Assembly (NCBI GenBank): GCA_017471965.1 | Contig: JAFURF010000010.1 | Location: forward strand, 1 to 54,708 | Length of the DNA stretch: 54,708 nucleotides | From: Bacteroidales bacterium | GTDB taxonomy: Bacteria; Bacteroidota; Bacteroidia; Bacteroidales; UBA932 | Reading direction: 5' to 3' | Shown here: positions 1-54,519 of the stretch, piece by piece | Layout: each line of letters opens with the position of its first letter | How positions within the stretch are numbered: the stretch's first letter is position 1 | Translations under genes and position numbers: made by a program | Notes under the pieces: model-generated | Told to the model about the DNA's origin: nothing | Seen by the model: the letters and a program-made list of their open reading frames with translations, nothing else | Databases searched by the model: none

Positions 1-106
1 GCGTAACTACACATGGACCAGCCTCAATAACGGTGCATGGAATATTTTTTCCATCGGCACCGAAAACGGAAGTCATTCCGATTTTCTTTCCAATTAATCC
101 AGGCAT
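1..106 (-). CDS. rplC: 50S ribosomal protein L3, N-terminal fragment
   Basis: Reading leftward from an ATG at 106-104, the strand encodes 35 residues beginning [15 protein letters not shown], the conserved N-terminus of bacterial ribosomal protein L3, and then runs off the window edge. L3 is an early-assembling 23S rRNA-binding protein of the large subunit. In most bacteria it is the second gene of the S10 operon, after rpsJ. Here the gene is preceded directly by a promoter-like AT-rich region and the divergent cdaA, so rplC appears to be the first gene of its cluster. The identification rests on the near-invariant N-terminal motif; the rest of the gene is outside the window. Confidence 0.93.
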
Positions 107-167
107 TGGTTTGTTTAATTAATTGATTATAAATACTTTATATCCCGCCACACATTTTTGCGGGCTG

Positions 168-197
168 CAAATATACGAATAATATTTTCATTTTCAA
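168..197 (-). promoter_or_regulatory. Promoter of rplC (Bacteroidota type)
   Basis: On the minus strand TTG (197-195) is followed after 19 nt by TATATTTG (175-168), matching the Bacteroidota pattern TTG-N19/20-TAnnTTTG. The predicted leader of about 60 nt contains a short hairpin, GCCCGC (165-160) pairing with the GCGGG at 148-144, before the rplC ATG. Confidence 0.7.
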
Positions 198-214
198 CAA
201 TTTATGCAAAAAAT

Positions 215-245
215 TTGTTGATAACTTTTAAAGGTAGTATCTTTG
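215..245 (+). promoter_or_regulatory. Promoter of cdaA
   Basis: TTG at 215-217, a 20-nt spacer, then TATCTTTG at 238-245. This is divergent from the rplC promoter, with the two -33 regions less than 20 nt apart. Transcription would begin about 15-20 nt before the cdaA start. Confidence 0.65.
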
Positions 246-262
246 CGCGGTATATATAATAG

Positions 263-1075
263 GTGTTTATGATGCTACTGGCGATCTTCGGCTTCCTCCA
301 GTTGTCCCTTGCGGACATTCTCGACATACTTCTTCTGGGACTGATCATCTTCTTTGCCTTCAAATGGCTGAGAGGGTCGTCTGCCATGAGCATATTCGTG
401 GCCATCGTATCGCTCTATCTCATCCGCGTCCTGGTATCGGCTTTCAACATGCGTCTGATGACTGCTCTTATGGAAACCGTACTCGACGTCGGAGTGCTCG
501 CCCTCATCGTCATCTTCCAGCCGGAAATCAGGAAGTTCCTGACACGTCTGGGCAACAGATACATGAACAACCCGAAGAGCAGGGCCATCCTCGACAGCAT
601 CCTCGGAAGAAAGACCGGCAACATCGCCGGAAGCGAGGCTGTCAACGACCTCACAGAAGCATGCAGAAGAATGTCGGAAGACAAGACCGGAGCCCTCATC
701 GTAATAGCCCACAGGACACCTCTGGACGAGATAATCAGCACAGGAGACCGCATCGACGCAGCCATCCACCGCCGTCTGATCATGAACCTGTTCTTCAAGA
801 ATTCGCCTCTGCACGACGGTGCCATGATCATATCAGGTGACAGGATCGTGGCGGCACGATGCACCCTCCCTATCACAGAGAGGACTGACATCCCTGCCAA
901 CTACGGCATGAGGCATAAGGCGGCGATAGGAATGACAGAGGAAAGCGATGCGGATGTAATCGTGGTATCGGAAGAGACCGGAAGGATATCCTTCGTCAAG
1001 GGAGGCACGGTAACAACTATCCAGAACATCAACGAACTCAAACTCCTCCTGAACACTGCACTGGAGGAGGCTTAG
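263..1075 (+). CDS. cdaA: Diadenylate cyclase CdaA
   Basis: A 270-residue membrane diadenylate cyclase (DisA_N/DAC family) that condenses two ATP into the second messenger c-di-AMP. Three hydrophobic segments occupy roughly residues 15-90, followed by a cytoplasmic DAC domain. The nucleotide-binding DGA motif is at residues 185-187 (within LHDGA). The second signature, normally RHR, reads RHK at 217-219. The length matches the CdaA family. The first in-frame start is GTG at 263, with ATGs at 269 and 272 as equally plausible starts. mutS2 follows after 19 nt, probably in the same transcript. No c-di-AMP phosphodiesterase or receptor is visible nearby. Confidence 0.93.
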   Translation: MFMMLLAIFGFLQLSLADILDILLLGLIIFFAFKWLRGSSAMSIFVAIVSLYLIRVLVSAFNMRLMTALMETVLDVGVLALIVIFQPEIRKFLTRLGNRYMNNPKSRAILDSILGRKTGNIAGSEAVNDLTEACRRMSEDKTGALIVIAHRTPLDEIISTGDRIDAAIHRRLIMNLFFKNSPLHDGAMIISGDRIVAARCTLPITERTDIPANYGMRHKAAIGMTEESDADVIVVSEETGRISFVKGGTVTTIQNINELKLLLNTALEEA

Positions 1076-1094
1076 CAAATTTGGAGACAACGAA

Positions 1095-39536: not shown

Positions 39537-42500
39537 ATGAGGTTTCTTATGAAAAGACATATTCTGACGATCGTGCTCGCCTTATGTGTACTGTCCGTCA
39601 ATGCTGCTACAACCCTTTCAGGGCGCTTCCGCAGCATCTCACTGCCATCGGGGAAAACCACGGCGGTCTTCTCCATGGCCCAGGACCCGTATGGATTCAT
39701 ATGGATGGGAACAGACGACGGACTTGCCCGATATGACGGATACGGATTCAAGATATACAGATGGGAGATGGGCGATTCGCTGTCTCTGGCCAATAATATT
39801 GTCAACGCCCTCCTTTATGACTCCGTCAGGTCATGCCTGTATGTAGGAACAGACAAAGGAGTCTGCATATATGACTCGGAAACCGACTGTTTCCACATGA
39901 TGCCGGGAACGACCGGACGCCATGTCAAGGCCTTTCTTTCCGAGGGTGACGACCTGTATATAGCGACCACGACAGGCCTTCTCAAAAGAATGGGTAACCA
40001 TACCGATACAATCCTTGAGGGGCATTTCACAAGCATCAGAAAAGTCAGGGGAAGCATCTGGGCATCATCATATGGATGTATATATGACATCACTGACGGC
40101 ACGGAAAATCATGACCTGACAGGAATTCTCAAGAACAAGGATGTTCTTGTCCTTGACATATGCGAGGATCTCACAGACAGCACAGCGTTGTGGCTGGGAA
40201 CGGAAAAAGGTCTGTTCCATTATCGTCCGGCAGAAAGAAAGGCAGACAGGCATCATCTGCCGAACACACCTGTCAAGACATTCCGATATTCGGGGACAGA
40301 CCTGTGGATAGGTTCCGACAACGGCCTCATCGTAATGGGGAAGAACGGGGATATGGACCTGTTCCGTCATAAGGTAGGAGAATCCGCTTCAATCCCTAAC
40401 AATGTCGTATGGAACATCATGGAAGACCTTTCCGGAAACATATGGCTGGGAACGGACCACGGCGTGGCCGTCTCAGATATAGGCTACCCATATAAATATA
40501 TAGGAGTGGACATGCTCACAGGACTGACAGAAGGACTTGACGTCAGCGTCCTGAAGACAGATAGGGACGGATACCTTTGGCTGGGCGGACGTAACGGACT
40601 TATCAGAAGTCGGCCGGGCCATGATGACGGGATATGGCTTAAGGCGGATTCCGGACATGGGAGGCTGTCACATAACAAGGTCCGAGGGCTTCATGATGAC
40701 GGCCAGAACATGTGGATAATATCCGACGGAGGACTGGACATCTACAGATATGACACAGGCAGAATCATGCACAGACATATCCTGGAACCGACAGGCAGAT
40801 ACAATTCCAACTGGATGTACTCCATTGCGGAAGATCCATACGGCCGGCTATGGATAGGCACATACGACGGAGGTATGTATGGAGTGGACAAAGAGCGTAT
40901 CCTGACCTCGAAAGAAAGGGTCATCTGTGACATCCATCTTAATAAGAATTCTGTACCGGCGCTGGCAAGCAATATTGTCAGGAACATAGCGATTCACGAA
41001 AACGACATTTATGCCGAGACATACAATGTAATCAACATAATATCTCTTGAAACATGGGAAACAAGACGGACACCGCTGCCATATGATGTATTCGTGCTGT
41101 CAATGATTCCCGGAGGAGACTGCGTATGGATAGGAACAGACAAAGGCCTCTTTCAGATCCGTAGGGACGGCAGTCTGAATAAGGTCTCTGGCTCGGATGT
41201 CTATGTAATGTCTCTGGCATGGCAGGATGACAGGATATGGGTGGCGGGAAAGACATCCATATCATCTTACTGTCCTGAAACAGGCATATGGGAGCACACT
41301 CCTATGAATGAACTTACATTGATGAGCGTCACCCCGTTCGGTCACAAACTATATTTCGGCACAGTCGACGGCATCATCGAATATTCATCGGAGAACAGGA
41401 AGGCATCCGATCAAAGCAGAGACATAACGCTTACCCGGATGTGGGTAAATGACGAACCCGTCGAGGTCGGGAAGAAATATGACGGACATGTGATTCTTGA
41501 AAGGAATATCACTTTGACAGACAGGATAACCCTGGCGCATTCTCAGAATTCATTTGCTTTCTCCATGTCGTCATTTGCCTTCGGAGGAGAAGATGATGCC
41601 ATGATGTATCGTCTTAAAGGATTCGATGATAAGTGGAGAAGAATTCAGGACAGGGAAAACAAGGCTGTATTCATAAACGTTCCGTCCGGAGATTATATCT
41701 TCGAGTTCGCGGCTGCAGGATCGGCTCCGGAACCTACCGGAAAGGTCTATTCTGTCGGACTTCACATAAAGCCCGTCTGGTATGCGACCCCTCTTGCCTA
41801 TTTCATATATGTCATCCTGTCAATGGGAGTGTGCATCGTGGCCATACACATCTGGAAGATGCGTCACCAGTTGCGGATGGAGCACGAGGAGAGAGAAAGG
41901 GCCATAGCGATGGCAGACAGCAAGACGGAGTTCCTCTCAGACATTTCCCACGAATTCAAAAGCCCTTTGAGCATCATACTGAGTTTCGTGTCCCGGATGA
42001 CTGCCTCTGAATCTGACGCACTGAGGACAAGAGAACTGCAGACAATACAGAAGAATGCAGAGAAAATGCATCTTCTTCTGAACCAGATGGTTGCATTTAA
42101 CGAAAACGGTTCATCCAATTTATTCATGCCGGTTGCCGTATCTCTAGGTGAAATAGCAAAAGAAGCATGGGGACGATTTGCCATGGCCTTTGCAGAAAAA
42201 GACATCAGCGCAAGATTCGTCGCCGATGATATAGGATACATGTTTATGGTAGACCGCGTACAGATGGAGTCCGTTCTGCAGAATCTTCTGTCTAATGCCC
42301 TCAAGTTCACACCACGTGGCGGAAGTATCCTTATGTCGGTAAGCATCAGCGATGAAACGACAGACATGGTATATGCCGACATCAAGGTAGAAGACACCGG
42401 TTGCGGAATTTCCGCCGATGAACTGCCGAAAATATTCAACCGCTTCTATATGGGGACATCAACGAAAGGAATGAACCAGAGCGGCAGCGGAATCGGCCTT

Positions 42501-43433
42501 CATATGGTAAAGAGAATAGTGGAAATGCATAAAGGCCGGATCATGGTCTCATCCGAACAGGGTAAAGGTAGTTGCTTCACAATCCGTCTGTCGACCATGA
42601 AGGCTGATTCCTTCATTCTCAAGAGCGCCGTCGAATCGGATCCGTCACTGCATAATCTTTCACGGGTATGGCAGCATGACAGGAAGCCTATCATTCTCAT
42701 AGTAGAAGACAATCAGGATATAAGAGATTTCATAATTGCCTCACTAGGAAAAGACTATGTGTTCCTTACCGCTCAGAACGGCAAAAGCGGACTGAATATT
42801 CTGAAGAAGGAGAAGATAGACCTGGTGATCACAGACATCGCCATGCCCGAAATGGATGGACTGACAATGAGCAGAAGCATCAGAAACAACCTCCACACAG
42901 CCTTTCTCCCTATCATCATACTCACAGGAAAGAATGATGCCCAGACCCAGATGCAGTCATTTGAATACGCCGACGCATTCATTGCAAAGCCGTTTGACCT
43001 GAACTACCTCAACGGCCGAATAATCCAACTTCTCATCAAGCACGAACAGTACCTCAACAAGATGCGTCAGCAGAACATCCTGCAGCAGCAGACTGAAAGT
43101 CTTGAATCTCCAGACGACCTGTTCCTGCAGGAAATGACAGCAATCGTATCCAGACATATCGATGACTCGAACTTCTCCGTATCGGTGTTATGTTCCGAAA
43201 GCCACTGGTCGGACAAGCAGGTATACAGGAAGATGAAGCAACTTACCGGTAAAACGGTATCGGAGTTCATTAGGGAGATCCGCCTGGAAAAGGCTGCTGC
43301 CTATCTGGCACAGCACAAACTTACCGTCAATGAAGTCATGTACAAGGTTGGCTTCACAACGGCATCATATTTTTCAAAATGCTTCAAAGAGAAGTTCGGC
43401 GTATCTCCTTCGGAATATTATCAGAACTATTAA
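39537..43433 (+). CDS. Hybrid two-component system regulator (HTCS) of the galactan locus
   Basis: A 1298-residue one-protein two-component regulator. The signal peptide is followed by a periplasmic sensor of beta-propeller blades (repeated W-x-GT-x-GL motifs such as WLGTEKGLFHY and WIGTDKGLFQI) and a Y_Y_Y domain (about 640-740). One membrane helix lies near 755-775. HisKA has phosphoacceptor H805 (ISHEFKSP). An HATPase domain (NLLSNALKFTPRGG; DTGCGIS) comes next, then a receiver with D1100 (TDIAMPEMDG) and a C-terminal AraC-type helix-turn-helix (about 1190-1298). By analogy with the B. thetaiotaomicron galactan PUL, it should bind galacto-oligosaccharide and activate the divergent susC operon. 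Confidence 0.95.
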   Translation: MRFLMKRHILTIVLALCVLSVNAATTLSGRFRSISLPSGKTTAVFSMAQDPYGFIWMGTDDGLARYDGYGFKIYRWEMGDSLSLANNIVNALLYDSVRSCLYVGTDKGVCIYDSETDCFHMMPGTTGRHVKAFLSEGDDLYIATTTGLLKRMGNHTDTILEGHFTSIRKVRGSIWASSYGCIYDITDGTENHDLTGILKNKDVLVLDICEDLTDSTALWLGTEKGLFHYRPAERKADRHHLPNTPVKTFRYSGTDLWIGSDNGLIVMGKNGDMDLFRHKVGESASIPNNVVWNIMEDLSGNIWLGTDHGVAVSDIGYPYKYIGVDMLTGLTEGLDVSVLKTDRDGYLWLGGRNGLIRSRPGHDDGIWLKADSGHGRLSHNKVRGLHDDGQNMWIISDGGLDIYRYDTGRIMHRHILEPTGRYNSNWMYSIAEDPYGRLWIGTYDGGMYGVDKERILTSKERVICDIHLNKNSVPALASNIVRNIAIHENDIYAETYNVINIISLETWETRRTPLPYDVFVLSMIPGGDCVWIGTDKGLFQIRRDGSLNKVSGSDVYVMSLAWQDDRIWVAGKTSISSYCPETGIWEHTPMNELTLMSVTPFGHKLYFGTVDGIIEYSSENRKASDQSRDITLTRMWVNDEPVEVGKKYDGHVILERNITLTDRITLAHSQNSFAFSMSSFAFGGEDDAMMYRLKGFDDKWRRIQDRENKAVFINVPSGDYIFEFAAAGSAPEPTGKVYSVGLHIKPVWYATPLAYFIYVILSMGVCIVAIHIWKMRHQLRMEHEERERAIAMADSKTEFLSDISHEFKSPLSIILSFVSRMTASESDALRTRELQTIQKNAEKMHLLLNQMVAFNENGSSNLFMPVAVSLGEIAKEAWGRFAMAFAEKDISARFVADDIGYMFMVDRVQMESVLQNLLSNALKFTPRGGSILMSVSISDETTDMVYADIKVEDTGCGISADELPKIFNRFYMGTSTKGMNQSGSGIGLHMVKRIVEMHKGRIMVSSEQGKGSCFTIRLSTMKADSFILKSAVESDPSLHNLSRVWQHDRKPIILIVEDNQDIRDFIIASLGKDYVFLTAQNGKSGLNILKKEKIDLVITDIAMPEMDGLTMSRSIRNNLHTAFLPIIILTGKNDAQTQMQSFEYADAFIAKPFDLNYLNGRIIQLLIKHEQYLNKMRQQNILQQQTESLESPDDLFLQEMTAIVSRHIDDSNFSVSVLCSESHWSDKQVYRKMKQLTGKTVSEFIREIRLEKAAAYLAQHKLTVNEVMYKVGFTTASYFSKCFKEKFGVSPSEYYQNY

Positions 43434-43966: not shown

Positions 43967-45130
43967 ATGAAAGTACTGATCGTATGCAACAATGCCTACA
44001 CGCGGGGAAACGGTCTGCAGACCGCCCTGCTCTCACTGCTCGGCAACCTGAAGGCGGAAGGGATCGATGCCCGTCTTCTGGCCACAGAAAACGAAGATGC
44101 CGCAGGTCCTCAACCGGACTACCCTCTGAAGCATTTCCATGTCCCCGTATTTGAATTCCTCATGGAATCCAACGGATTCCGGTTCGGGACCATCGACCCC
44201 GGCACACTGGCACGGGCTGTAAGATGGGCCGATGTCATTCATATACAGGAGGCCTTTCCTCTGGAGTCCAGAGTCATCACACTGGCGGAAAAGATGGGCA
44301 AGCCCTGCGTCGCCACCTATCACCTCTTTGCTCAGAACGTGGTGGCAAACGCCATCCACGGAGAGGCGGACAATGTCATCAACTCGGTCATAGACTGGTT
44401 CTGGAAGGAATATGTCTTCGACAGATGCTCGCATATCCACTGCCCCACCGAGACGGTCCGCAGACATCTTGAAGAGCAGGGCTTCAAGGCAAGCATGGAA
44501 GTGTTCAGCAACGGCATTCCCATTCCGGAAAAGGCCGTGAAGGCAGAAACGGTCATTGCCGGCTCCGGTCCTGTCGACATTCTGTGCATAGGCCGCCTGG
44601 CATATGAAAAGTCGCAGGAGACTCTTCTGGACGCTATGGAGCACTCACGCCATTCCCACAGGATCAGACTCCATTTCGCAGGGAAGGGTCCCATGGAAGA
44701 GAGCATCAGGAAGAAGGCGGCAAAACTTGTGGATGACGGGGTCCTGACATATGAACCGGTATTCGGCTTCTATGATAAGGCCAGCCTCACTGAACTCATC
44801 CGCCGTTCCTATCTCTATATCCATTGCGCATGGGCCGAAGTGGAAGGGCTGTCGTGCCTGGAGGCCATCCGCGAAGGCCTGGTGCCTCTGATCGCGGACG
44901 GGGAACTGACCGCCACATCGCAGTTTGCACTGGATGAAAGGAGCATATTTCCTGCTCACGACGCAAGGAAACTGGCAGAAAAGATCGACTGGTGGATAGA
45001 TCATCCGGCCGAAAGGAACGAAATGGGACAGAAGTATGCCGACTCGGCAAGAGCCTACGACATCCGCAAATCCACTGAAGCGATGGTAGGAATGTACCGG
45101 AAAGCCTTGTCGTCGCAAGTCTCTCAATAA
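43967..45130 (+). CDS. GT4-type glycosyltransferase
   Basis: A 387-residue GT-B fold glycosyltransferase of family 4. The N-terminal acceptor domain contains GNGLQTALLSLLGNLKAEG. The C-terminal nucleotide-sugar domain has ILCIGRLAYEKSQETLLDA and the E-x7-E-like EVEGLSCLEAIREGLVPL, which binds the donor. There is no signal peptide, so it is cytosolic, possibly membrane-associated. Donor and acceptor are unknown. There is no surrounding capsule or O-antigen gene cluster, so it may modify a lipid or a protein glycan. The patatin remnant follows after 52 nt with its own promoter. Confidence 0.88.
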   Translation: MKVLIVCNNAYTRGNGLQTALLSLLGNLKAEGIDARLLATENEDAAGPQPDYPLKHFHVPVFEFLMESNGFRFGTIDPGTLARAVRWADVIHIQEAFPLESRVITLAEKMGKPCVATYHLFAQNVVANAIHGEADNVINSVIDWFWKEYVFDRCSHIHCPTETVRRHLEEQGFKASMEVFSNGIPIPEKAVKAETVIAGSGPVDILCIGRLAYEKSQETLLDAMEHSRHSHRIRLHFAGKGPMEESIRKKAAKLVDDGVLTYEPVFGFYDKASLTELIRRSYLYIHCAWAEVEGLSCLEAIREGLVPLIADGELTATSQFALDERSIFPAHDARKLAEKIDWWIDHPAERNEMGQKYADSARAYDIRKSTEAMVGMYRKALSSQVSQ

Positions 45131-45140
45131 ATCCTGAAGA

Positions 45141-45181
45141 TATTCCGGTAAATGCTTATCTTTGTAAAGACAACCGGAATA
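45141..45181 (+). promoter_or_regulatory. Promoter bracketed by a 9-bp inverted repeat
   Basis: TATTCCGGT (45141-45149) and ACCGGAATA (45173-45181) are perfect inverted repeats on either side of the -7 box TATCTTTG (45157-45164). The right arm reaches to 1 nt before the ATG of the patatin remnant. It could be an operator or a small 5' hairpin. Confidence 0.5.
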
Positions 45182-45182
45182 T

Positions 45183-45452
45183 ATGACAATAGACAAGAAT
45201 ACGGCTCTGGTGCTGGAAGGCGGCGGCCTCCGCGGGGTGTTCACCTGCGGAGTCCTTGACAATTTCATGAAGCGCGGCATCCGGTTCCCATTTACGGTAG
45301 GAGTGAGCGCAGGGGCCTGCAACGGACTCTCATATATGTCAGGACAGATCGGAAGGGCGAAGGCGAGCAACATCGACCTGATGGACAAGGACACCGCAAA
45401 ACTCCGCGCCCTGTATGAAGAGGGGTATGTTCTGGCTGATGTGATCAAATGA
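45183..45452 (+). pseudogene. Patatin-like phospholipase remnant (internal deletion)
   Basis: An 89-residue open frame with the start of a patatin-like phospholipase: oxyanion loop EGGGLRGVFTCG and nucleophile elbow GVSAG, then SGQIGRAKASNIDLMDK. In full-length relatives (around 280-300 residues) the middle of the protein, including the catalytic Asp of the DG[GA] motif, follows here. Instead the sequence jumps to DTAKLRALYEEGY, which resembles the usual C-terminal helix. This looks like an in-frame loss of about 200 codons, so the product should be inactive. The promoter and start are intact. The call depends on remembered family pattern; an assembly collapse is possible. Confidence 0.65.
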
Positions 45453-45464
45453 ACCGATATGAAC

Positions 45465-45495
45465 TTGAATGACGTCTGCATATAGGTTAATTTTG
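45465..45495 (+). promoter_or_regulatory. Promoter of the fimbrillin/M64 operon
   Basis: TTG (45465-45467), a 20-nt spacer and TAATTTTG (45488-45495), a full match to the Bacteroidota pattern. The -7 box is 21 nt before the ATG of the first fimbrillin-like gene. Confidence 0.7.
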
Positions 45496-45516
45496 CGGAA
45501 ATCAACTATTTACCAC

Positions 45517-46419
45517 ATGAAAAAGACAGCATTTCTTATCGCTGCAGTTGCTGCTATCATATGCGGCTGCAAAAAGGAACCGGTAACTCCCGGACCAGAG
45601 ATTCCACAGGAAGAACCGGTTAAGATCCCTATCACACTCAGCACCGACATCTGGACGAAGGCCACAGACAGCGGCTACGAGAACGGCGACAAGGTCGGAA
45701 TCTACACCGTAAACTATGTCAACGGTTCTCCTGCCGAGCTTGCAACCACCGGCAATCACCTGGACAACACGATGTTTGCTTATGACGGTTCTTCATGGAA
45801 GCCTGAAAAGGAAGTCTACTGGAAGGACCAGACCACCCCTGCAGACTTCTACTGCTACTATCCTTACACCGGTACGGTAAGCGATGTCAAGGGCCTGTCA
45901 TTCAGTGTAAAGGAGGATCAGTCTTCGATTGAAAACTACAAGGCCAGCGAACTTCTCTGGGGAAAGACTGACGGAGCCAAGCCGTCTACGAACCCTGTAA
46001 AGATCACCACACGCCATATGATGAGCAACGTGCTCGTTTACGTGGAGCCCGGTGAGGGATATACAGAGGAGACACTTGCAGCAGAGGAAATCAGCGTCAT
46101 CATCACAGGGGTAAAGACCGCTGCCAAGATCAATCTTGCAAACGGAAGCGTCACTGCCGAAGGTTCTGCCGGCAACATAACCCCATACAAGGAAAACGGA
46201 TACTGGAGAGCCCTTGTAGTGCCTCAGGACATCACAGGAACCGAAATCGTGAAGATTACCGTCGGTTCTGACGAATACACACTGAATCAGACTGTAAGTT
46301 TCCAGTCAAACAAGCAGCACAAATGCACGATCACAGTCAACAAGGTCGGTGAAGGCGTGAACATCGGCATCGGCGGATGGGAAAGCGACGACACTGACTT
46401 CGGAGGCACAGTAGAATAA
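45517..46419 (+). CDS. Fimbrillin-like lipoprotein 1 (Mfa-like)
   Basis: A 300-residue lipoprotein (lipobox IICGC) of the fimbrillin / Mfa-like family, whose members form the shaft, anchor or tip of Bacteroidales type V pili. Family landmarks shared with the next two genes are GDKVGIYTVNYVNG near residue 65, EVYWKDQ...YYPY near 105, ASELLWGK near 150 and RHMMSNV near 170. ATG 45517 is used because it gives a clean signal peptide. It starts an operon; the next gene begins 11 nt after the stop. Whether it polymerises cannot be told from sequence. Confidence 0.85.
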   Translation: MKKTAFLIAAVAAIICGCKKEPVTPGPEIPQEEPVKIPITLSTDIWTKATDSGYENGDKVGIYTVNYVNGSPAELATTGNHLDNTMFAYDGSSWKPEKEVYWKDQTTPADFYCYYPYTGTVSDVKGLSFSVKEDQSSIENYKASELLWGKTDGAKPSTNPVKITTRHMMSNVLVYVEPGEGYTEETLAAEEISVIITGVKTAAKINLANGSVTAEGSAGNITPYKENGYWRALVVPQDITGTEIVKITVGSDEYTLNQTVSFQSNKQHKCTITVNKVGEGVNIGIGGWESDDTDFGGTVE

Positions 46420-46430
46420 TCCATACAGTT

Positions 46431-49400
46431 ATGAAGACATTCAGATATCTGCTTGGAGCCATGACGGTTGCGCTCATGGCATCCTGCGCTCTGGACGAGG
46501 GTGGGTTCGAACCGCAGACACAAGATGCGGAGAAGAAGCCTATCGTCATTGCAGGACGCATCAATCAGGAATATGAAACAAGGGCGAACGATGAAGGATT
46601 CTGCAACGGAGACGTCGTGGGAATCTACATCGTAGACTATGACGGAGACACTCCGGGCACTCTTCAGAATGAAGGCAACCGTGCAGACAACCTCCGGTTC
46701 ACCTTCGACGAGGCCGCATACAAATGGGTACCGGCATACGAAGTCTACTGGAAAGACAAGAATACCCACATAGACCTCTACGGCTATTACCCTTGGGGTT
46801 CACCGGAGGAGGTGGAGAACTACGCATTCGAAGTTCAGAAAGACCAGAGAAAAGAGGCTGAAAACGGTCAGTTGGGAGGCTATGAGGCCAGCGACTTCCT
46901 TTGGGGAAAGTCGACGGACAATGCTCCAACCGCCGCTGTCATCCGTCTGGGCTTCAACCACATGATGGCTTCCGCACGCATCACCCTCGCCGAAGGTATC
47001 GGCTTCGACGAAGGCGAATGGGCTAAAGCACAGAAGCAGGTGATAGTCCTCAACACTGCACGCAAGTCGAGCATCAACCTCAAGACCGGCGTAGTCACTG
47101 CCGACAGCGAGATTCCATCTACAGGAACTATCCCATATAAGGACGGAGACGACTACAGAGCCATCATCGTGCCTCAGGCCGTTCCTGCAAACACTAACCT
47201 CCTGAGCATCACTGTAGACGGAGAATCCTATTTCCTCAAGAAGACCGAAGATTTTGTCTACAATCCTTCAAAGCAGCACAACTTCACAGTCACCGTGAAC
47301 AAGCGTGCCGCAGGCGGAGGACTTGGGTTCGTTCTTACTTCCGAGAGCATCACAGTGTGGGAGAACGACCCTGTATCGCATGACGCCATCGCAAGGGAAT
47401 ATGTCATCATCAATGTGCCTGAGGCAGGAACCCTCGACAAATGCATCGAGGAGGCTGGCAAGGATCTTACCAAGATCAGAAACCTCAAACTGACAGGTCA
47501 GATCAACTCGAGGGACTTTGCGGTGATGAGATTCAAGATGTCCCGTCTTTCTGCCCTGAACATGAGGGAAGTGGCCATTGTGGCCGGTGAAGGAGGAGAA
47601 TTGGGACCAGGACAGGGATATGTAAATAATGAAGACGGAGAGATTCCTAACTACGCGATGAATGCCAAAGAAAGTCTGACCTCGCTTGTCCTTCCTGAAA
47701 ATGGATTGAGGAAAATTTCAGGAGAAGAAGGTGGTGGACGAGGAGCATTCAATGGATGTGTGAATCTGTCCGGTTCCTTGATAATTCCTGAGGGTGTCGT
47801 AGAAATTGAACCAGCGGCATTTGGAGGATGCACCAGTCTTACCGGAACGCTGACTCTACCTTCTACACTTGAGATATTGGGTAGTACAAACTGCTATACA
47901 CCTGGACATGACGGTGTCTTCCAGGGTTGTAATTTCGTTTGCGAAATCAACTTGCCGGAAAACCTTAAGGTTCTGGGAAGTGGAACATTCAGCAACTGCA
48001 AAAACATCTATGGAGAAATCCGTCTGCCTGAAGGACTCCAGGAAATCGGACCTGGAGCGTTTGAATACTGCGAAAATCTTACAGGATCGATTGTCATCCC
48101 TCAGGGAGTGACGACCATTCCATATGATACTTTCAACGGAACATGGGTGGGAGGAACCCTTACACTCCATGACGGCATAATCAGCATTGGGTCCGGAGCA
48201 TTTGCAAACACAGGACTTAAAGGTGAACTTCGTCTCCCGAAAGATCTTGAAGTCATCAGCCATAGCGCTTTCTACAATTGTGATTTCTCCGGAAATCTTG
48301 TTCTTCCTGAAAATCTTTACACTATAGGCGACAAGGCTTTTGCATACAACTGGCGCCTCATGGGAACTCTTGAAATTCCTGAAAACGTGATATCAATCGG
48401 AGCCGGTGCGTTCGCTAAATGTAGTAGTCTGGAAGGTATCATCTTCCCTGAAGGTCTGGAAAGTATCAGGTACAACACCAACTGGAATGACGACGGTGGT
48501 GCATTCCAGGACTGTTTCGGCATAGGCCGTATCGTCTGCAAGGGAACAATTCCCGCATATGTGATGGAAGGAGCCTTCCACGGAGTGGCAAAGGACAACT
48601 TCACCCTTGAGGTTCCGGAATCTGCAATCCAGCAGTATCAGGCCGCAACAGGATGGAAGGATTTCAAGAGGATTTCTGCATACCGCAACCTCGTGATCCG
48701 TCCTTCGATGGCTACAGCCATCAACACCAGCGTGACCCGCGATCTCGTGCTTACCGCAGACGACGAGTGGTATGTGGAGAGCCAGCCTGACTGGGTGACC
48801 CTCGACAAGACAAGCGGCAAGGGCAAGGCCGAAATAAAACTGACCTTTGCAGAAATGCCTGCAGGATCAGAACCGCGCGAAGGAGAGGTGGTCTTCATGC
48901 TCAAAGGTCAGGACTATCGCACACGTTGCAGACTGACCCAGTATGACTACCAGTATGCCGAGGATGAATTCATAACATTCCAGGAGGCATCGAAGGGTAA
49001 CGGAAAACTCAATATCGTTCTTCTCGGCGACGGATACAACGCGAAGGACATCAGCGAAGGCAAGCTTATCGAGAATGTGACCGAGGCATACGGACATTTC
49101 TTCGACATCGAGCCTTACAAGACCTACAAGGATTATTTCAACGTCTATACTGCAGTATCTGTTTCTCCAGAATCGGGTATCGGAAGCGTGAACACCATCA
49201 TCTACAACAAGTTCAACACCTCTGCAAAAGGAGGCGTGACATTGAGCGGACGCAACGGAGACAGCGACTTCAACTACATAATGAAGTACATCTGCGACTC
49301 CGGGAAGGTCGCATCTGAAGACCTGAACCAGACCCTCGTGATCATGGTGCCTAACACCTATGACTACGGCGGCATCTGCTACATGTGGGATGAAGGATTC

Positions 49401-49976
49401 GCCATCGCCTACTGTCCTATGAGCAACTACGGCTATCCTCTCGATTTCAGAGGAGTGGTGCAGCATGAGGCCGGCGGACACGGATTCGGAAAACTCGGAG
49501 ACGAATACATCTATCACAATGCTTTCATTGACGCCTGCTCATGTACATGCTGCGGCCATGTATTCGAATTCAACATGGCTAAGGCGAAGGGCTGGTACGA
49601 CAACCTCTCCCTCACCGGAAAGATGAGTGAAGTGCCATGGAGCCACCTCATCTTCCACGAGAAATACAGCGAGTTCGTCGACATCTTCGAAGGCGGATTC
49701 ATGCACAACCGCGGAGTATACCGCTCGGAGCAGAACAGCTGCATGAACAACGACATCCCATACTACAGCACCATAAGCCGCGAATCCATCGTCAAGAGGA
49801 TCAAGGCATATGCAGGCGAGGAGTATTCGTTCGAGGACTTTGTCGCAAATGACGTAGTGGAGGCCGGATCGACCGATACCGAAACCAAGTCGTTCGACAA
49901 CAGCTACCTCTTCAACAGCCGTGCATCTCAGCAGAACGAACCTGTATTCATGGGAAAACTTCCGTCACTTAAATAA
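46431..49976 (+). CDS. Fimbrillin-LRR-BACON-M64 metallopeptidase fusion
   Basis: An 1181-residue predicted surface lipoprotein (lipobox LMASC). Domains in order: a fimbrillin-like module (about 30-290, with GDVVGIYIVDYDGD, EVYWKDKN...YYPW, ASDFLWGK and NHMMAS); BspA-type LRR_5 repeats (about 410-750, repeated IPEGV/LPEGL-x-I-x-x-x-AF); a BACON-like domain (about 755-830, LVLTADDEWYVESQPDWVTL); and a C-terminal M64 (IgA-type) zinc peptidase (about 840-1140). The zinc motif is HEAGGHGFGKLGDEY (1012-1026), with one more residue between the first two histidines than HExxH. NRGVYRSEQNSCMN is also typical of M64. It may be an adhesin with protease activity; target unknown. Confidence 0.88.
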   Translation: MKTFRYLLGAMTVALMASCALDEGGFEPQTQDAEKKPIVIAGRINQEYETRANDEGFCNGDVVGIYIVDYDGDTPGTLQNEGNRADNLRFTFDEAAYKWVPAYEVYWKDKNTHIDLYGYYPWGSPEEVENYAFEVQKDQRKEAENGQLGGYEASDFLWGKSTDNAPTAAVIRLGFNHMMASARITLAEGIGFDEGEWAKAQKQVIVLNTARKSSINLKTGVVTADSEIPSTGTIPYKDGDDYRAIIVPQAVPANTNLLSITVDGESYFLKKTEDFVYNPSKQHNFTVTVNKRAAGGGLGFVLTSESITVWENDPVSHDAIAREYVIINVPEAGTLDKCIEEAGKDLTKIRNLKLTGQINSRDFAVMRFKMSRLSALNMREVAIVAGEGGELGPGQGYVNNEDGEIPNYAMNAKESLTSLVLPENGLRKISGEEGGGRGAFNGCVNLSGSLIIPEGVVEIEPAAFGGCTSLTGTLTLPSTLEILGSTNCYTPGHDGVFQGCNFVCEINLPENLKVLGSGTFSNCKNIYGEIRLPEGLQEIGPGAFEYCENLTGSIVIPQGVTTIPYDTFNGTWVGGTLTLHDGIISIGSGAFANTGLKGELRLPKDLEVISHSAFYNCDFSGNLVLPENLYTIGDKAFAYNWRLMGTLEIPENVISIGAGAFAKCSSLEGIIFPEGLESIRYNTNWNDDGGAFQDCFGIGRIVCKGTIPAYVMEGAFHGVAKDNFTLEVPESAIQQYQAATGWKDFKRISAYRNLVIRPSMATAINTSVTRDLVLTADDEWYVESQPDWVTLDKTSGKGKAEIKLTFAEMPAGSEPREGEVVFMLKGQDYRTRCRLTQYDYQYAEDEFITFQEASKGNGKLNIVLLGDGYNAKDISEGKLIENVTEAYGHFFDIEPYKTYKDYFNVYTAVSVSPESGIGSVNTIIYNKFNTSAKGGVTLSGRNGDSDFNYIMKYICDSGKVASEDLNQTLVIMVPNTYDYGGICYMWDEGFAIAYCPMSNYGYPLDFRGVVQHEAGGHGFGKLGDEYIYHNAFIDACSCTCCGHVFEFNMAKAKGWYDNLSLTGKMSEVPWSHLIFHEKYSEFVDIFEGGFMHNRGVYRSEQNSCMNNDIPYYSTISRESIVKRIKAYAGEEYSFEDFVANDVVEAGSTDTETKSFDNSYLFNSRASQQNEPVFMGKLPSLK

Positions 49977-49982: not shown

Positions 49983-49990
49983 ACATGATT

Positions 49991-50872
49991 ATGAAGAAGA
50001 TTTTTATTTCAGCAATTGCAATCCTGGTTGCTATTGCAGGATGTAACAAGATAGAGACTCCTGCTGTGACTGATGACGGAACCATGCGTTTCAACGTTGC
50101 TCATCCTGCTACAAAGGCCACAGAGACAGCTTTTGAGGATGGGGACAAGATAGGAGTATACATTACCGGGTATCAGGACGGAAAACCTCTCGCTCTGCAG
50201 CTCGGAGGGAACTACAAGAACAACAACCCTGTCACTTACGACGGTACCAGTTGGACTGCAGATCCCGTGATCTACTGGGGTGAAGGAAAATACGATGTGT
50301 TTGCGTATTATCCGTTCATGATTCCGGAATCCGTGGACGAACTTAAGTTCAGCGTGGCCCTTGACCAGAGGGTAGCGGAAACCGCAGATGCATTGAGCGC
50401 ATATGAGGCAAGTGATTTCCTTTATGCTGTAAAGAAAGGCGTGACATCGGCTGACGGTGAAGTGGAACTGATATTCAAGCATAAGATGAGCAAACTCACA
50501 GTAAACCTCATCAAGGGTGCGGACTACGAAGGAGACCTTCCAGCAACAGCAACCCTGCTTGTTCACAGCACTGTCACAGACTGCCTGATCGACCTTGCCA
50601 CAGGAGACGTGATCAAGAATCCTTATTCTCCTGCCAGGACCATCACGGCAAAGCAGATCGATGCCGGCACCCATACCGCCATCATCGTCCCTCAGATGCT
50701 GACCAACAAGAAACCTCTCATCGAGATCGTCTTCAAGGATGTTTCGTACATGGTGGAGAGCAAGTTCCAGTTCAAGAGCGGAACCCACCACGTCCTCAAC
50801 ATCACCATCAACAACAATCCTGACAAGGTCAAGATCGAAGTCGGAGGCGAAATAGAAAACGATTGGGAATAA
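49991..50872 (+). CDS. Fimbrillin-like lipoprotein 2 (Mfa-like)
   Basis: A 293-residue lipoprotein (lipobox AIAGC) with the same fimbrillin-like landmarks as its neighbours: GDKIGVYITGYQDG, PVIYWGEGKYDVFAYYPF, ASDFLYAVKKG and FKHKMSKLTV. A strong AGGAGG site 8 nt upstream selects ATG 49991 over ATG 49985. It lies 14 nt after the M64 fusion gene and so is in the same operon. Three fimbrillin-like proteins with a common core suggest that they interact on the cell surface, for example as anchor and tip of a short appendage. This is inference. Confidence 0.85.
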   Translation: MKKIFISAIAILVAIAGCNKIETPAVTDDGTMRFNVAHPATKATETAFEDGDKIGVYITGYQDGKPLALQLGGNYKNNNPVTYDGTSWTADPVIYWGEGKYDVFAYYPFMIPESVDELKFSVALDQRVAETADALSAYEASDFLYAVKKGVTSADGEVELIFKHKMSKLTVNLIKGADYEGDLPATATLLVHSTVTDCLIDLATGDVIKNPYSPARTITAKQIDAGTHTAIIVPQMLTNKKPLIEIVFKDVSYMVESKFQFKSGTHHVLNITINNNPDKVKIEVGGEIENDWE

Positions 50873-50899: not shown

Positions 50900-51931
50900 A
50901 TGGGAAGATTCGCGACTCTTATAAGTCTTACTATTAGTATCATTATGGTCTCATGTGCCGAGGTTCCGGAATGCCCGGAATCCTCGGTGCCTGAGATTGT
51001 GAGCATCACTTCCCTGCCGAACATATACAATGCGACTCTGATATCGGACCTGAAGTCAGCCCCGGCAGGAAAGGTGGAATGCGGGTTCTATATAGGTAGC
51101 GACAGGAGCCGTCTCACCCGTTACAAGGGAGAACTGTCCGGATCAACATTCAGAGTATCCGTTGATAATCTTTCGGAATCCACGACATACTGGTTCAAGG
51201 CATTCGTCAGCAACGGACGCAATGAAATAGCCTCTGGATTCGAATCCTTCATCACCGGACAGGCACCCGTAGTTCCGGAAGAACCGTCTGAACCATCCGA
51301 ACCGTCTGATCCGGAGACCCCTTCAGAGCCGGAGACCCCGGAAAATCCTGAAAATCCATCCGAACCTGAAGAGCCGGAGGAACCGTCTGAACCATCCGAT
51401 CCGTCTGATCCGGAGACCCCTTCAGATCCGGAGACCCCGGAAAATCCTGAAAATCCATCTGAACCTGAAGAGCCGGAGGAACCGTCTGACCCCGTTGAAC
51501 CGGAGAACCCTACGGAACCCGAGAATCCGACAGAGCCGGAAGACCCCGACAATCCGGTCGGACCAGAAGAACCATCGGAACCGGACAAACCGCAGGAACC
51601 TGATAATCCTGAGGAACCTGATAATCCTGAGAAACCGGAAGAACCCGTAGAATTCACCACCGGAATAGGAGAGATTTCGGCATCAGAAGTCAACGGGATC
51701 GTCGAACTGTCCGCCGTTCTGAACGGAGACACTTCCCTTGTCAAAGAGTGCTGGTTCCTTGCCGGATTCACGGAAGACCGGTTGAGCAAGATCAAGGGCG
51801 CTATCGAAGGTTCTTCTTTCAAGGCCTACCTTGCCGGACTGGAGCCTGGCACCTATTACTACAAGGCCGTCATCACTGACGGAAACACGACGAAAGAATC
51901 TGAACTTTCATCATTCACATTAAACGAGTAG
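50900..51931 (+). CDS. FN3-like / Pro-Glu stalk lipoprotein
   Basis: A 343-residue lipoprotein (lipobox IMVSC) I cannot assign to a named family. A first fibronectin-III-like module (about 30-118, ending TTYWFKAFVSNGRNEIASGFESF) is joined by a stalk of about 130 residues of Pro, Glu, Ser, Asp and Asn to a second, similar module (about 255-343, ending TYYYKAVITDGNTTKESELSSFTL). The stalk should be extended and hold the distal module away from the membrane or in the cell-surface layer. Part of the stalk is encoded by 99-bp DNA repeats, so its length probably varies between strains. The DNA-binding-like gene follows after 1 nt. Confidence 0.8.
   Translation: MGRFATLISLTISIIMVSCAEVPECPESSVPEIVSITSLPNIYNATLISDLKSAPAGKVECGFYIGSDRSRLTRYKGELSGSTFRVSVDNLSESTTYWFKAFVSNGRNEIASGFESFITGQAPVVPEEPSEPSEPSDPETPSEPETPENPENPSEPEEPEEPSEPSDPSDPETPSDPETPENPENPSEPEEPEEPSDPVEPENPTEPENPTEPEDPDNPVGPEEPSEPDKPQEPDNPEEPDNPEKPEEPVEFTTGIGEISASEVNGIVELSAVLNGDTSLVKECWFLAGFTEDRLSKIKGAIEGSSFKAYLAGLEPGTYYYKAVITDGNTTKESELSSFTLNE
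51281..51490 (+). repeat. 99-bp in-frame tandem repeats in the stalk
   Basis: GAACCGTCTG recurs at 51281, 51380 and 51479, exactly 99 bp (33 codons) apart. The first two units are nearly identical over their whole length; the third decays after about 12 bp. The in-frame period predicts length variation without frameshift. Confidence 0.85.
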
Positions 51932-51932
51932 A

Positions 51933-52511
51933 ATGCATAACAAACATATCCCTGAATTGGCCTACCTCCTGTCAGAGGTAGAAAAGAAATATGGCCGCAG
52001 AGTGGCCACATCAACGGATTTCGAATCATTATCTGTAGTCATCGAACACCAGACAGGAGAACTTGTCTCATCATCGACACTCAAAAGACTATGGGGCTAT
52101 GTAAGCCTCAATCCCACTCCAAGGATGTCCACTCTGGACATTCTGTCGCGCTTCATCGGGCATAAGGATTTCAGGCATTTCTGCCGGTCACTGACTGACA
52201 GCAATATCTTTTCATCGACATTCTTTTCGTCCAGATGCCTTGTGACGTCTGACCTCTCTATCGGACAGAAAGTCGTCATCGGATGGGCTCCAGACAGAAT
52301 CATCCGACTCAGATACTGCGGAGAGCACAACTTTGAAGTAGAGGATTCCGTCAATTCACAACTGAAGACAGGAGACAGGTTCGAACTTTCCGAAATCATC
52401 CTCGGATATCCTCTTTTCATTTCAAGGATATTACGTGATGGAGAATATACTCCGTCATATGTGGCCGGACAACACGGCGGAATCAACATGCTTGATCTTG
52501 AACAGGATTAA
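51933..52511 (+). CDS. Putative DNA-binding protein, Bacteroidales family
   Basis: A 192-residue cytosolic protein without a named family that I can recall. The N-terminal 90 residues form a helical module (VVIEHQTGELVSSSTLKRLWGYVSLNPTP; TLDILSRFIGHKDFRHFC). The SSSTLKRLWGYV segment resembles a recognition helix and recurs in uncharacterised Bacteroidales proteins. The C-terminal half is beta-rich (IGQKVVIGWAPDRIIRLRYCGEHNFEVE), possibly a small ligand-binding barrel. It starts 1 nt after the stalk gene, so it is co-transcribed with the fimbrillin operon, and it overlaps the convergent kinase gene by 4 nt. A regulatory role is inference. Confidence 0.65.
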   Translation: MHNKHIPELAYLLSEVEKKYGRRVATSTDFESLSVVIEHQTGELVSSSTLKRLWGYVSLNPTPRMSTLDILSRFIGHKDFRHFCRSLTDSNIFSSTFFSSRCLVTSDLSIGQKVVIGWAPDRIIRLRYCGEHNFEVEDSVNSQLKTGDRFELSEIILGYPLFISRILRDGEYTPSYVAGQHGGINMLDLEQD

Positions 52512-53536
52512 AGTATCTGATTCAGTGCATCATTGAAAAGATCATCAAGGTCCGAGGCATCAATCGATTCTTCGGACACTTTTGTTTTCACAGTATCCTT
52601 ACGAGGGGAAACGGGCCTGAGAGGTTCTTCCGCCGATACGACTTCTTCAACGGTCGGCAACACGGGCTCTTCCGGAAAAATTTCCTCCTTCTGTTCAAGG
52701 GCATCATTACCCATGGAAACCCATAGATCGCGAAGCAGGAAAGCAGAAGTCAATATCACCATTATCGTGATGACAGATACAAGGAACCTGGCAAAAAGTC
52801 TCCGACCGGCATTCTGCATAGCAGTCTTGACTTGCATGGCATTGGCGAAACGCAGGTTCCTGTCCCTCCTGAGGCACTTGGACGCCACATGACCGTATGC
52901 ATCCGTCATTTCATTGATAACCATTCCCAAAGACCAGATGTCACTTCGTCCGTCAATCTGCTCTCCTGCCATCAGTTCGGGAGACGCATAGACTTTGGTT
53001 CCGGCAGGAGCCTTGAAGGCATTGTAGGAGTCCCCATCAGACAGGCCGAAATCGATTATCTTGACATTCTGCCCATTATATGTCACCAGTATGTTCTCCG
53101 GCTTGAGATCACGATGAACGACCTGTTTCCTATGCATATAGTCCAGAGCATCACATATCTCGCAGATGAGTTTCCTGGCCAAGGGACGGTCTATTTTCCC
53201 GTCCAGAATCAGTCTTTCAAGGCTGCATCCATCCACCCATTCCATAACGATGCAGTTGCCGATGCCCGGAAGATCCACCATCCCGTAGTATTGGCAGATG
53301 TTGCTGTGAGTCAGGGAGAAGCCGATGTTGAAATCCTTCTTCAGAAGTTCTTCGTATATATGGTCGCCTCGATACTCCGGCTTCAAAGCCTTATAGACGA
53401 AGAATCGTCCGTTCTTGCTACCCCTATACAGAACATTGAATCCGTCCTCAGAATCATGGATGATTTCGAGGCTGTCGGAGGTGATCGGAGAATCTCCCGG
53501 ACCACTTGTCATGAAAAAGCCGGACGGTCCAAGCAT
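52508..53536 (-). CDS. Eukaryotic-type Ser/Thr protein kinase, membrane-anchored
   Basis: A 342-residue Hanks-type kinase. The catalytic lysine is K49 (VYKALK). HRDLKPEN has D143 and N148, DFG is at 162-164, and SPE (185-187) stands in for APE. The C-lobe is short: only about 45 residues follow SDIWSLG before a single membrane helix (about 250-268). The helix is followed by an acidic, Pro-rich tail (EEIFPEEPVLPTVEEVV) with no PASTA or other sensor domain. The glycine-rich loop is weak. It converges with the DNA-binding-like gene (4-nt overlap) and is divergent from a barrel protein. Substrates are unknown; control of the adjacent surface operon is speculative. Confidence 0.9.
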   Translation of the reverse strand: MLGPSGFFMTSGPGDSPITSDSLEIIHDSEDGFNVLYRGSKNGRFFVYKALKPEYRGDHIYEELLKKDFNIGFSLTHSNICQYYGMVDLPGIGNCIVMEWVDGCSLERLILDGKIDRPLARKLICEICDALDYMHRKQVVHRDLKPENILVTYNGQNVKIIDFGLSDGDSYNAFKAPAGTKVYASPELMAGEQIDGRSDIWSLGMVINEMTDAYGHVASKCLRRDRNLRFANAMQVKTAMQNAGRRLFARFLVSVITIMVILTSAFLLRDLWVSMGNDALEQKEEIFPEEPVLPTVEEVVSAEEPLRPVSPRKDTVKTKVSEESIDASDLDDLFNDALNQIL

Positions 53537-53575: not shown

Positions 53576-53583
53576 TAAATTTG
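53576..53583 (+). promoter_or_regulatory. -7 box of the barrel-protein gene
   Basis: TAAATTTG ends 6 nt before ATG 53590, so the transcript would be leaderless or nearly so. Confidence 0.45.
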
Positions 53584-53589
53584 CATGAT

Positions 53590-54519
53590 ATGAAAACCGG
53601 ATTGAGACATATTCTCTGCCTTGTCTGCCTTATTCTGGCCTCATTCTCTCTAAGAGGGCAAAACCAGTCGGATTCGGATGTCTTATTGAACCGATATGAA
53701 CTTTTGTGCGCAGAGTGCGTCAGCCTCAGATCCAAGGTAAATGCCGGTGAAAAAGTATCAAGGAAGCAGGCAAAGGACATGCTTGATGCGTTTGTAAAGA
53801 TGAATGGTGAGATCAAGTCTGCCGCAGATTCCCTTTCTGATGACCAGAAGAGGCGTTTTGAAGCCGTCAACAGATGGTTTGCCACCGGAGTAAGGCCTTT
53901 AATGCTAAGTCATCAGACATTTGCATCTTGCCCCAAAGCCCTTCAAGCACCAAAAGTGACGACAGAGATCACCATTCCATGGCCGGCACCTCAGACGGAA
54001 CCGGTTAGCGCTCCACAAGAAAACCATTTCTTCAGACCACGCTACACCGTGCTGGCTTCAGTTTCTTACCCGGATGCTTCATTCGGGGCAATGTTCGGCA
54101 TACAGGCACGCTCCAAAGCAAAGGGAAAAGCAACATGGGGCGGATATGTCCATTTCAAGAGCAATTTTGATTTCAGCGAACCGTCCTACTTCTGTTCCGG
54201 TGACGGCGTCCTTGAGAACGGAGGGGCTTTCTGGCCGAGCGGAGACAAGCAGAACAGCACACTGAAAGTGACAGGCGGCATTCTTGCAGGAGTAAACAGA
54301 TGGCTCAACATCTACGCAGGCCTCGGGTACGGCTGCAAAAGATTGTATTGGGAAGATATCGACGGCCAATGGGCTCAGGTCCGTGATTTTTCTTACGCCG
54401 GTCTGGCATCAGAAGCAGGATTGATTTTCTCATGGCGTCACATATCGGTCGGAGCAGGCATCTCCACCATCGGTTTCCGCACTCCATCATTCGACCTTTC
54501 AGTCGGCATCTCCTTCTGA
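53590..54519 (+). CDS. Putative outer-membrane beta-barrel protein
   Basis: A 309-residue exported protein of no family I recognise. The signal peptide (MKTGLRHILCLVCLILASFSLRGQ) is followed by a charged helical segment (about 25-105: ECVSLRSKVNAGEKVSRKQAKDML) and a Pro-rich linker (WPAPQTEPVSAP). The C-terminal 150 residues alternate polar and aromatic residues in beta-strand fashion (YTVLASVSYPDASFGAMFG; NIYAGLGYGCKRLYW) and end in SVGISF with a terminal Phe, as in outer-membrane barrels. ATG 53590 is preferred to the in-frame TTG at 53581, which lies within the promoter. It shares its promoter region with the divergent kinase. Confidence 0.72.
   Translation: MKTGLRHILCLVCLILASFSLRGQNQSDSDVLLNRYELLCAECVSLRSKVNAGEKVSRKQAKDMLDAFVKMNGEIKSAADSLSDDQKRRFEAVNRWFATGVRPLMLSHQTFASCPKALQAPKVTTEITIPWPAPQTEPVSAPQENHFFRPRYTVLASVSYPDASFGAMFGIQARSKAKGKATWGGYVHFKSNFDFSEPSYFCSGDGVLENGGAFWPSGDKQNSTLKVTGGILAGVNRWLNIYAGLGYGCKRLYWEDIDGQWAQVRDFSYAGLASEAGLIFSWRHISVGAGISTIGFRTPSFDLSVGISF

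Follow-up and report, generated by a model that had tools for sequence, protein, structure and literature searches.

We analysed a 54,708-nucleotide stretch of contig JAFURF010000010.1 from a Bacteroidales bacterium (the window), which encodes on its forward strand (46431-49976) a lipoprotein of 1181 aa that we refer to as FLBM (fimbrillin-LRR-BACON-M64; LRR, leucine-rich repeats). On balance, we favour the view that FLBM is a subunit of the tip type in a type V pilus-like surface device, with a metalloprotease as its cargo. A more specific proposal, to which we give somewhat less than an even chance, is that a portable C-terminal donor strand carried by unrelated lipoproteins (a pilin, a collagen-like stalk or a BACON protein) serves as the mount for a metalloprotease that is guided by LRR and has an M49-style HExxGH zinc site, on a protease-tipped type V pilus-like device encoded beside a Ser/Thr kinase in many Bacteroidales genera. 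The arrangement is more orderly than a preliminary description of this DNA had supposed.

The open reading frame (ORF) for FLBM is intact and, in a profile search of the window proteins, each of its four Pfam domains scored above the curated cut-off. The lipobox Cys (C19; 46485-46487) is present in 78 of the 79 rows of an ortholog alignment (A2), the remaining row having a gap; A2 includes the window and omits L162 (ambiguous residues), the cut or broken L153, L154, L159, L160 and L166, the cut L161 and L169, and identical copies (L and G numbers denote loci and genomes, respectively). The fimbrillin (type V pilin) domain comprises residues 33-314 (46527-47372) with a complete Mfa_like_1 match. 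Past its first strand lies the candidate processing site R51 (46581-46583), at which A2 has Arg in 75 rows, Lys in three and a gap in one, and which may be cleaved. Next are BspA-type LRR at about residues 331-751 (47421-48683; PF13306; structural matches 4fd0, 4cp6 and 4fs7), a BACON domain at residues 753-839 (48687-48947; PF13004 above cut-off, BACON fold) and an M64-fold metallopeptidase domain at residues 842-1130 (48954-49820; PF09471 above cut-off, M64 fold). A variable linker then leads to a conserved C-terminal tail, P-x-[hydrophobic]-x-x-G-x-x-P (49929-49973), which was found in 63 rows of A2 by pattern and in 12 more by eye (L158 included); L032 ends before the tail, and the three rows that lack the peptidase active site also lack the tail, which counts as one event at most because they are close relatives. 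This tail may be a pseudo-substrate or plug.

In a structure model of FLBM based on the 79 aligned rows, 673 of the 1181 residues have a predicted local distance difference test (pLDDT) score ≥90 and the individual domains are confident. Compared with solved structures, the model contains, in order, a type V pilin fold, an LRR solenoid, a BACON module and an M64 peptidase fold. The N-terminal part has the two-sandwich fimbrillin fold, on which the preliminary description had made its interpretation depend. Behind the pilin domain, LRR-BACON-M64 forms an additional C-terminal functional part, as in type V tip pilins. Moreover, all eight rows of a smaller alignment (A1), the window being one of them, match all four Pfam families. 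In total, the co-occurrence of the Pfam domains above their cut-offs and the structure model confirm that the four-domain fusion lipoprotein is real.

The preliminary description had presented this domain combination as one not met before; by contrast, the fusion is widespread over Bacteroidales genera, yet a minority of genomes within each sample carry it. Of the 121 genomes from the genus to which the window belongs, at least 9 encode FLBM, the window's own included; the other carriers are G079, G112, G106 (two copies), G026, G032, G023, G120 (disrupted into two frames) and G067 (divided between two contigs). In a family sample, FLBM or pieces of it were detected in at least 17 of 299 genomes and in 7 of 25 genera. 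Three genomes (G000, G023 and G067) belong to both sets, and the carrier counts are lower bounds as the searches scored the best few candidates per genome and gave shortened lists. Among named genomes, a pattern search yielded 279 relatives, of which the best 79, ranked by similarity to the window protein, are the named loci. An ORF of >900 aa with fimbrillin, LRR and M64 matches is present in 77 of these 79 loci; there are 80 such ORFs, all matching BACON too, with two each in L118, L119 and L141. In L161, the FLBM ORF is cut off at 870 aa, all four domains being present, and in L169 at 756 aa, the fimbrillin part being missing. The record titles of FLBM loci include Bacteroides, Mediterranea, Phocaeicola, Prevotella, Xylanibacter, Butyricimonas, Muribaculaceae, and Alistipes or Rikenellaceae. 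Among the titles and abstract openings listed in searches of the open PubMed Central (PMC) literature, we found no description of this fusion protein or locus. Because the fusion recurs in a similar gene neighbourhood in many Bacteroidales genera, we consider it a real surface device of gut-type members of the order.

The core of the locus is ordered lipoprotein-FLBM-fimbrillin. In the window, the upstream gene is fimA, which encodes a fimbrillin lipoprotein of 300 aa (45517-46419; the listed ORF starts at 45469, PF13149 E 2e-55 on the listed ORF) and is separated from FLBM by 11 bases; after 8 bases, FLBM is followed by fimB, a fimbrillin lipoprotein that ends at a Trp without a tail (49985-50872; PF13149 E 8.7e-51). 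Both genes lie on the forward strand. In the named loci, fimA is directly upstream of 64 of the 80 FLBM ORFs (9 at contig edges) and fimB directly downstream of 66 (5 at contig edges). Because the named loci were ranked by similarity to the window protein, we also used the G-genome sample, in which fimB is the next gene in 23/23 places with downstream sequence, with one small ORF in between in L036. Both fimbrillins that flank FLBM in the window carry T-K-A sites, the site in fimA being Arg in 49 and Lys in 10 of 59 rows.

FimA ends in a donor-strand-like tail (residues 280-300; 46354-46416) in which G280, W288, G296 and G297 are present in 59/59 rows of an alignment (A3) that omits L099, L105 and L152. 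In the structure model of FimA (pLDDT 86.5; predicted template modelling (pTM) score 0.80), most of the core has pLDDT >90 and the tail is disordered, with pLDDT <50 at residues 280-291; the counterpart of the tail in FLBM, residues 298-309, is modelled as a strand. A tail that is conserved and yet predicted to be disordered is what would be expected of the donor strand of a type V pilus.

The same ending is shared by upstream proteins of very different kinds, e.g. IGIGGWESDDTDFGGTVE in the window and IIGIGGWESDSHSGNAN in L036. Using a loose tail pattern that came from the G set, we found the tail in 63 of the 66 ORFs that immediately precede FLBM in the named loci and in 22 of 830 other ORFs of these loci, 19 of the 22 being barrel-like or FN3-LRR proteins; two of the three misses are copies of fimB flanked by FLBM on both sides, and the third has two extra residues past the tail. 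A strict pattern, which was tuned on the data on which it was tested, matched 61/66 upstream ORFs and 0/876 others, a count in which ORFs cut by the locus end were kept. The G and named sets share contigs (L101, L110, L124, L168 and L172 agree in length with contigs of G079, G112, G218, G106 and G390, respectively); with the shared contigs removed, the tail was present in 59/62 (loose) and 58/62 (strict) upstream ORFs. In a fresh control that was not used to write the patterns, i.e. the M64 loci L039-L083 without FLBM, 1/161 ORFs matched the loose and 0/161 the strict pattern. Moreover, fimA is the sole match among the 39 ORFs of the window, 20 of 21 upstream ORFs examined in the G set match one of the two patterns, and none of the 70 FimB proteins of the named loci does, all 70 ending at most six residues past the last Trp.

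By Pfam, the bodies that precede the tail are DUF4988 with collagen (L035, L178), BACON (L179, L185) or fimbrillin (the window and others). The upstream protein of L036 scored 23.7 bits for BACON, just under the cut-off, and those of L034, L177, L181 and L184, which have no family above cut-off, may be distant pilins. As the families differ among the tailed proteins, the body appears to be exchangeable. Because the tail is conserved on fimbrillin as well as non-fimbrillin bodies, FLBM looks like a tip subunit on interchangeable bases.

We propose the following mechanism. FLBM, as its lipobox suggests, would reach the outer membrane as a lipoprotein. There, a surface Arg/Lys-specific protease would cut past R51 and remove the first strand of the pilin domain, and the upstream lipoprotein (FimA, or elsewhere a DUF4988-collagen or BACON protein) would insert its Trp/Gly tail into the vacated groove and hold FLBM. 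The LRR region would then hold a target, perhaps with BACON as a spacer, for cutting by the C-terminal M64-fold domain; sugar binding is not obligatory for BACON modules. FLBM would fit the tip role because it has a putatively cleavable site, its C-terminal end is occupied by cargo and its neighbour has a free tail. FimB, because it is encoded directly downstream and has no tail past the Trp, may be another terminal or adaptor subunit. A clostripain-family gene is present in 9 of 10 FLBM genomes searched, the exception being the window's own genome, which is 64% complete.

The zinc motif of the peptidase domain is HEAGGH (H1012-H1017; 49464-49481), i.e. six-residue HExxGH, with D1024 (49500-49502) as the candidate third ligand. 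In a HMMER alignment, it is one residue longer than its counterpart in 3p1v and 4df9 (HEF-GH). The published M64 motif, HEXXHXXXGXXD, is not matched by the FLBM sequence HEAGGHGFGKLGD, which has one extra residue and a Lys at the Gly position; we conclude that the domain is an M64-fold variant and not a canonical M64 peptidase. HExxGH is present in 76 of the 80 named FLBM ORFs; L160 ends before the motif, and L168, L170 and L172 have QYWAGGR instead. Similarly, H1012, E1013 and H1017 are kept in 76 of the 79 rows of A2, and in L158 the third ligand is Glu. The QYWAGGR copies occur on three distinct contigs (L004 (ORF 95-3409)/L168, L170 and L172/L176) and retain both the open frame and the locus; this FLBM subclade has lost the active site and also the C-terminal tail.

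The six-residue motif is not restricted to FLBM. Among 45 M64 ORFs of the genus (L039-L083), gathered with a motif filter that keeps motif-less copies outside the count, 40 have HExxGH and 5 have HExxH. Thus, HExxGH occurs in a broad Bacteroidales branch of M64-fold proteins with HExxH members within the same branch. In a tree of 57 M64 domains, FLBM forms one group (support 99/99) that includes the active-site-less copy, HExxGH is spread across a large non-canonical group, and the distribution of HExxH (5 rows including L042) needs four changes, three of which are forced by well-supported branches; the long branches leading to L041 and L042 join each other, and the position of the root is uncertain. 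We read this as one gain of HExxGH followed by several losses. The branch of the active-site-less copy has a length of 1.16 compared with 0.033 for its sister, as if constraint were relaxed on that branch alone. In the available excerpts on M49 peptidases, HEXXGH is the hallmark of the family, a natural HEXXH member has much the same zinc site (PMC5805324), the zinc helix of dipeptidyl peptidase III has an enlarged turn (PMC3268031), and enzymes with HEXXGH are active (PMC3268031, PMC5805324). Because M49 enzymes work with this motif, peptidase activity of FLBM is plausible by analogy. HEXXXH is also reported for TldD/E and tubulin carboxypeptidase. According to the sections available of a 2025 EMBO J study, M64 clusters keep HEXXHXXXGXXD except for Asp-to-Glu changes and a trypanosomatid cluster (PMC12402451); the HExxGH branch may be outside that set, or the extra residue may be unmentioned there, and the six-residue motif may already be present in its motif logos. 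The other M64 proteins of the window's genome are a BACON-M64 protein, an LRR-M64 protein with BACON under cut-off, an M64 protein with an unclear N-terminus and a canonical M64_N-M64 protein; elsewhere, LRR-M64 proteins without a pilin domain above cut-off occur in L043, L056, L059, L072 and L080. Given several LRR-M64 fusions in the genus, the combination of M64 and LRR is a recurrent theme, for which the pilin is one of several mounts.

LRR-M64 proteins of this kind would also fit a different reading, in which FLBM is a stand-alone lipid-anchored adhesin-protease, its fimbrillin domain serves only as a rigid stalk, and the fimbrillins encoded nearby have functions of their own. In the same genus, six of nine M64 proteins scanned are LRR-M64 proteins without fimbrillin above cut-off (L040, L043, L056, L059, L072, L080), and the lipobox is conserved. 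Nevertheless, we regard this as unlikely, because the Arg/Lys past strand 1 is conserved equally with the lipobox (78/79 each), fimB follows FLBM wherever the G set allows this to be tested (23/23), and unrelated bodies keep the upstream tail. It is also conceivable that FLBM is a pseudo-enzyme adhesin in which the extra residue of the zinc helix abolishes catalysis and binding alone matters, given that the QYWAGGR subclade lost the residues outright on three distinct contigs and keeps the gene, and that published M64 clusters are said, in the part available of PMC12402451, to keep HEXXHXXXGXXD. This we consider improbable, as H1012, E1013 and H1017 are otherwise retained (76/79 rows), M49 enzymes with HEXXGH are active (PMC3268031, PMC5805324), and the long branch suggests that constraint is relaxed in the active-site-less copy alone.

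The preliminary description had placed an IgA-type protease on a fimbria-like structure. One part of this stands, i.e. a protease-fold domain on a pilin module, as indicated by the fold, the conserved Arg/Lys, the adjacent fimB and the tailed upstream partner; IgA as the target does not, and the label IgA-type is unsupported. That FLBM is an IgA protease sensu stricto on a pilus is very improbable, because the zinc motif differs; moreover, FLBM is also present in L124, a record titled 'SCNpilot_bf_inoc', which we take to be a bioreactor without animals. That FLBM is an assembly chimera of separate genes has practically no chance of being correct: the window's genome is a draft of 85 contigs, and we found nothing in favour of a chimera, whereas the same fusion is present in independent assemblies of several genera, e.g. 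in records titled Bacteroides bouchesdurhonensis and Butyricimonas synergistica. We rejected this explanation as the fusion recurs in the genus, family and named-genome sets, and the presence in related genomes, for which the preliminary description had asked, is thereby established.

Several observations weigh against FLBM as the tip of a type V pilus-like device. The filament, the cleavage and the activity are predictions from sequence, as are assembly and substrate. The pTM score of the FLBM model is 0.48, and the arrangement of the domains relative to each other is uncertain. Most genomes of the window's genus are without FLBM, the ranking of the named loci may favour loci with flanking fimbrillins, and the separation obtained with the strict tail pattern may partly reflect its tuning. 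In L180, no tailed protein is encoded directly upstream of FLBM, and the tail could bind a partner other than FLBM. In the locus, we found no candidate anchor pilin, which would lack a cleavage-like site. The clostripain genes are of little weight, as the family also matches 4 of 14 control genomes, among which there are no FLBM-free Bacteroidales. Finally, the direction of strand donation in type V pili is disputed in the portions available of PMC5789003 and PMC4789730.

Beyond the core, genes for a ~190-aa protein, a Ser/Thr kinase, an FN3-LRR lipoprotein and a barrel-like protein occur at many loci; about eleven named loci, by eye, have the three-gene core alone despite continuing sequence. 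In the window, fimB is followed by a lipoprotein-like protein that has an extended Pro/Glu repeat and ends weakly resembling FN3 (50900-51931, forward strand; PF16656 below cut-off), a 192-aa protein that is a putative regulator by position and look only (51933-52511, forward strand; no Pfam match; relatives in 44/79 named loci), a Ser/Thr kinase on the reverse strand with, by eye, a hydrophobic stretch behind the kinase domain (52508-53536; PF00069 E 1.9e-36; relatives in 47/79 named loci) and a possible outer-membrane beta-barrel protein (53581-54519, forward strand; weak PF13505 match below cut-off; relatives in named loci). The repeat protein, the repeat of which comprises Pro, Glu and Asp, has a weak NCBIfam match to an IgA Fc-binding family (E 7.8e-5, 20.7 bits versus 1700) that looks like an effect of composition only. 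The order and strand of the kinase and the 192-aa gene vary between groups, and both remain nearby. Among the 79 named loci, a WG/NTF2-like lipoprotein is present in 51, an FN3-LRR lipoprotein in 50 (leaving out L169, in which the labelled ORF is the cut fusion) and a barrel-like protein in 48, with five more of the window type; many of these loci are cut by contig ends. In G106 (L033, 909-2733, reverse strand), two more fimbrillins with tail-like ends lie downstream of fimB, as if that device had more shaft-like subunits. Immediately 5' of fimA, 45183-45452 encodes what remains of a patatin-like phospholipase (89 aa; PF01734, positions 1-64 of 191), and no inverted repeat ≥11 (arms up to 600 apart) that might mark an invertible promoter was found within 44900-45700. 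Further upstream lies a hybrid two-component protein with a sensor propeller, a histidine kinase, a receiver and an AraC-type HTH (39537-43433).

Published work, in the parts available, describes type V pilus tips as binders. If our proposal is correct, a conserved metalloprotease at the tip would make type V pili tools that cut what they hold. Moreover, because the portable tail also occurs on proteins that Pfam does not classify as pilins, it allows the disputed donation of strands in type V assembly to be tested directly and at low cost. As the motif of the HExxGH branch deviates from the M64 signature in the literature, the label 'IgA peptidase' inherited from Pfam should not be read as a function.

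FLBM shares with type V tip pilins (Mfa3, 5nf4) the lipobox, the pilin fold of two beta-sandwiches, the Arg/Lys past strand 1, an extra part on the C-terminal side and adjoining pilin genes; it differs in that the extra part consists of LRR and a metalloprotease-fold domain and in that the upstream partner may be a tailed non-pilin. Mfa5 of Porphyromonas gingivalis is likewise very large and an accessory protein at the tip of a type V fimbria; by contrast, the available text of PMC7835359 mentions no protease for Mfa5. The M64 peptidases BF3526 and BACOVA_00663 and the IgA protease ThomasA have in common with FLBM the peptidase fold over about 245-270 aa and the ligand order HE...H...D, whereas FLBM has HExxGH instead of HExxH, Lys at the published Gly and different other domains. 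With dipeptidyl peptidase III of family M49, as portrayed in the excerpts cited above, FLBM shares the six-residue HEXXGH zinc motif and natural HEXXH members in both groups; however, the best structural matches of the peptidase part of FLBM, in a comparison not aimed at M49, are M64 chains, and the third ligand in M49 is Glu. Finally, BspA-type LRR surface proteins (4fd0, 4fs7) share the LRR region with FLBM, whereas the titles of those entries include no pilin or protease parts.

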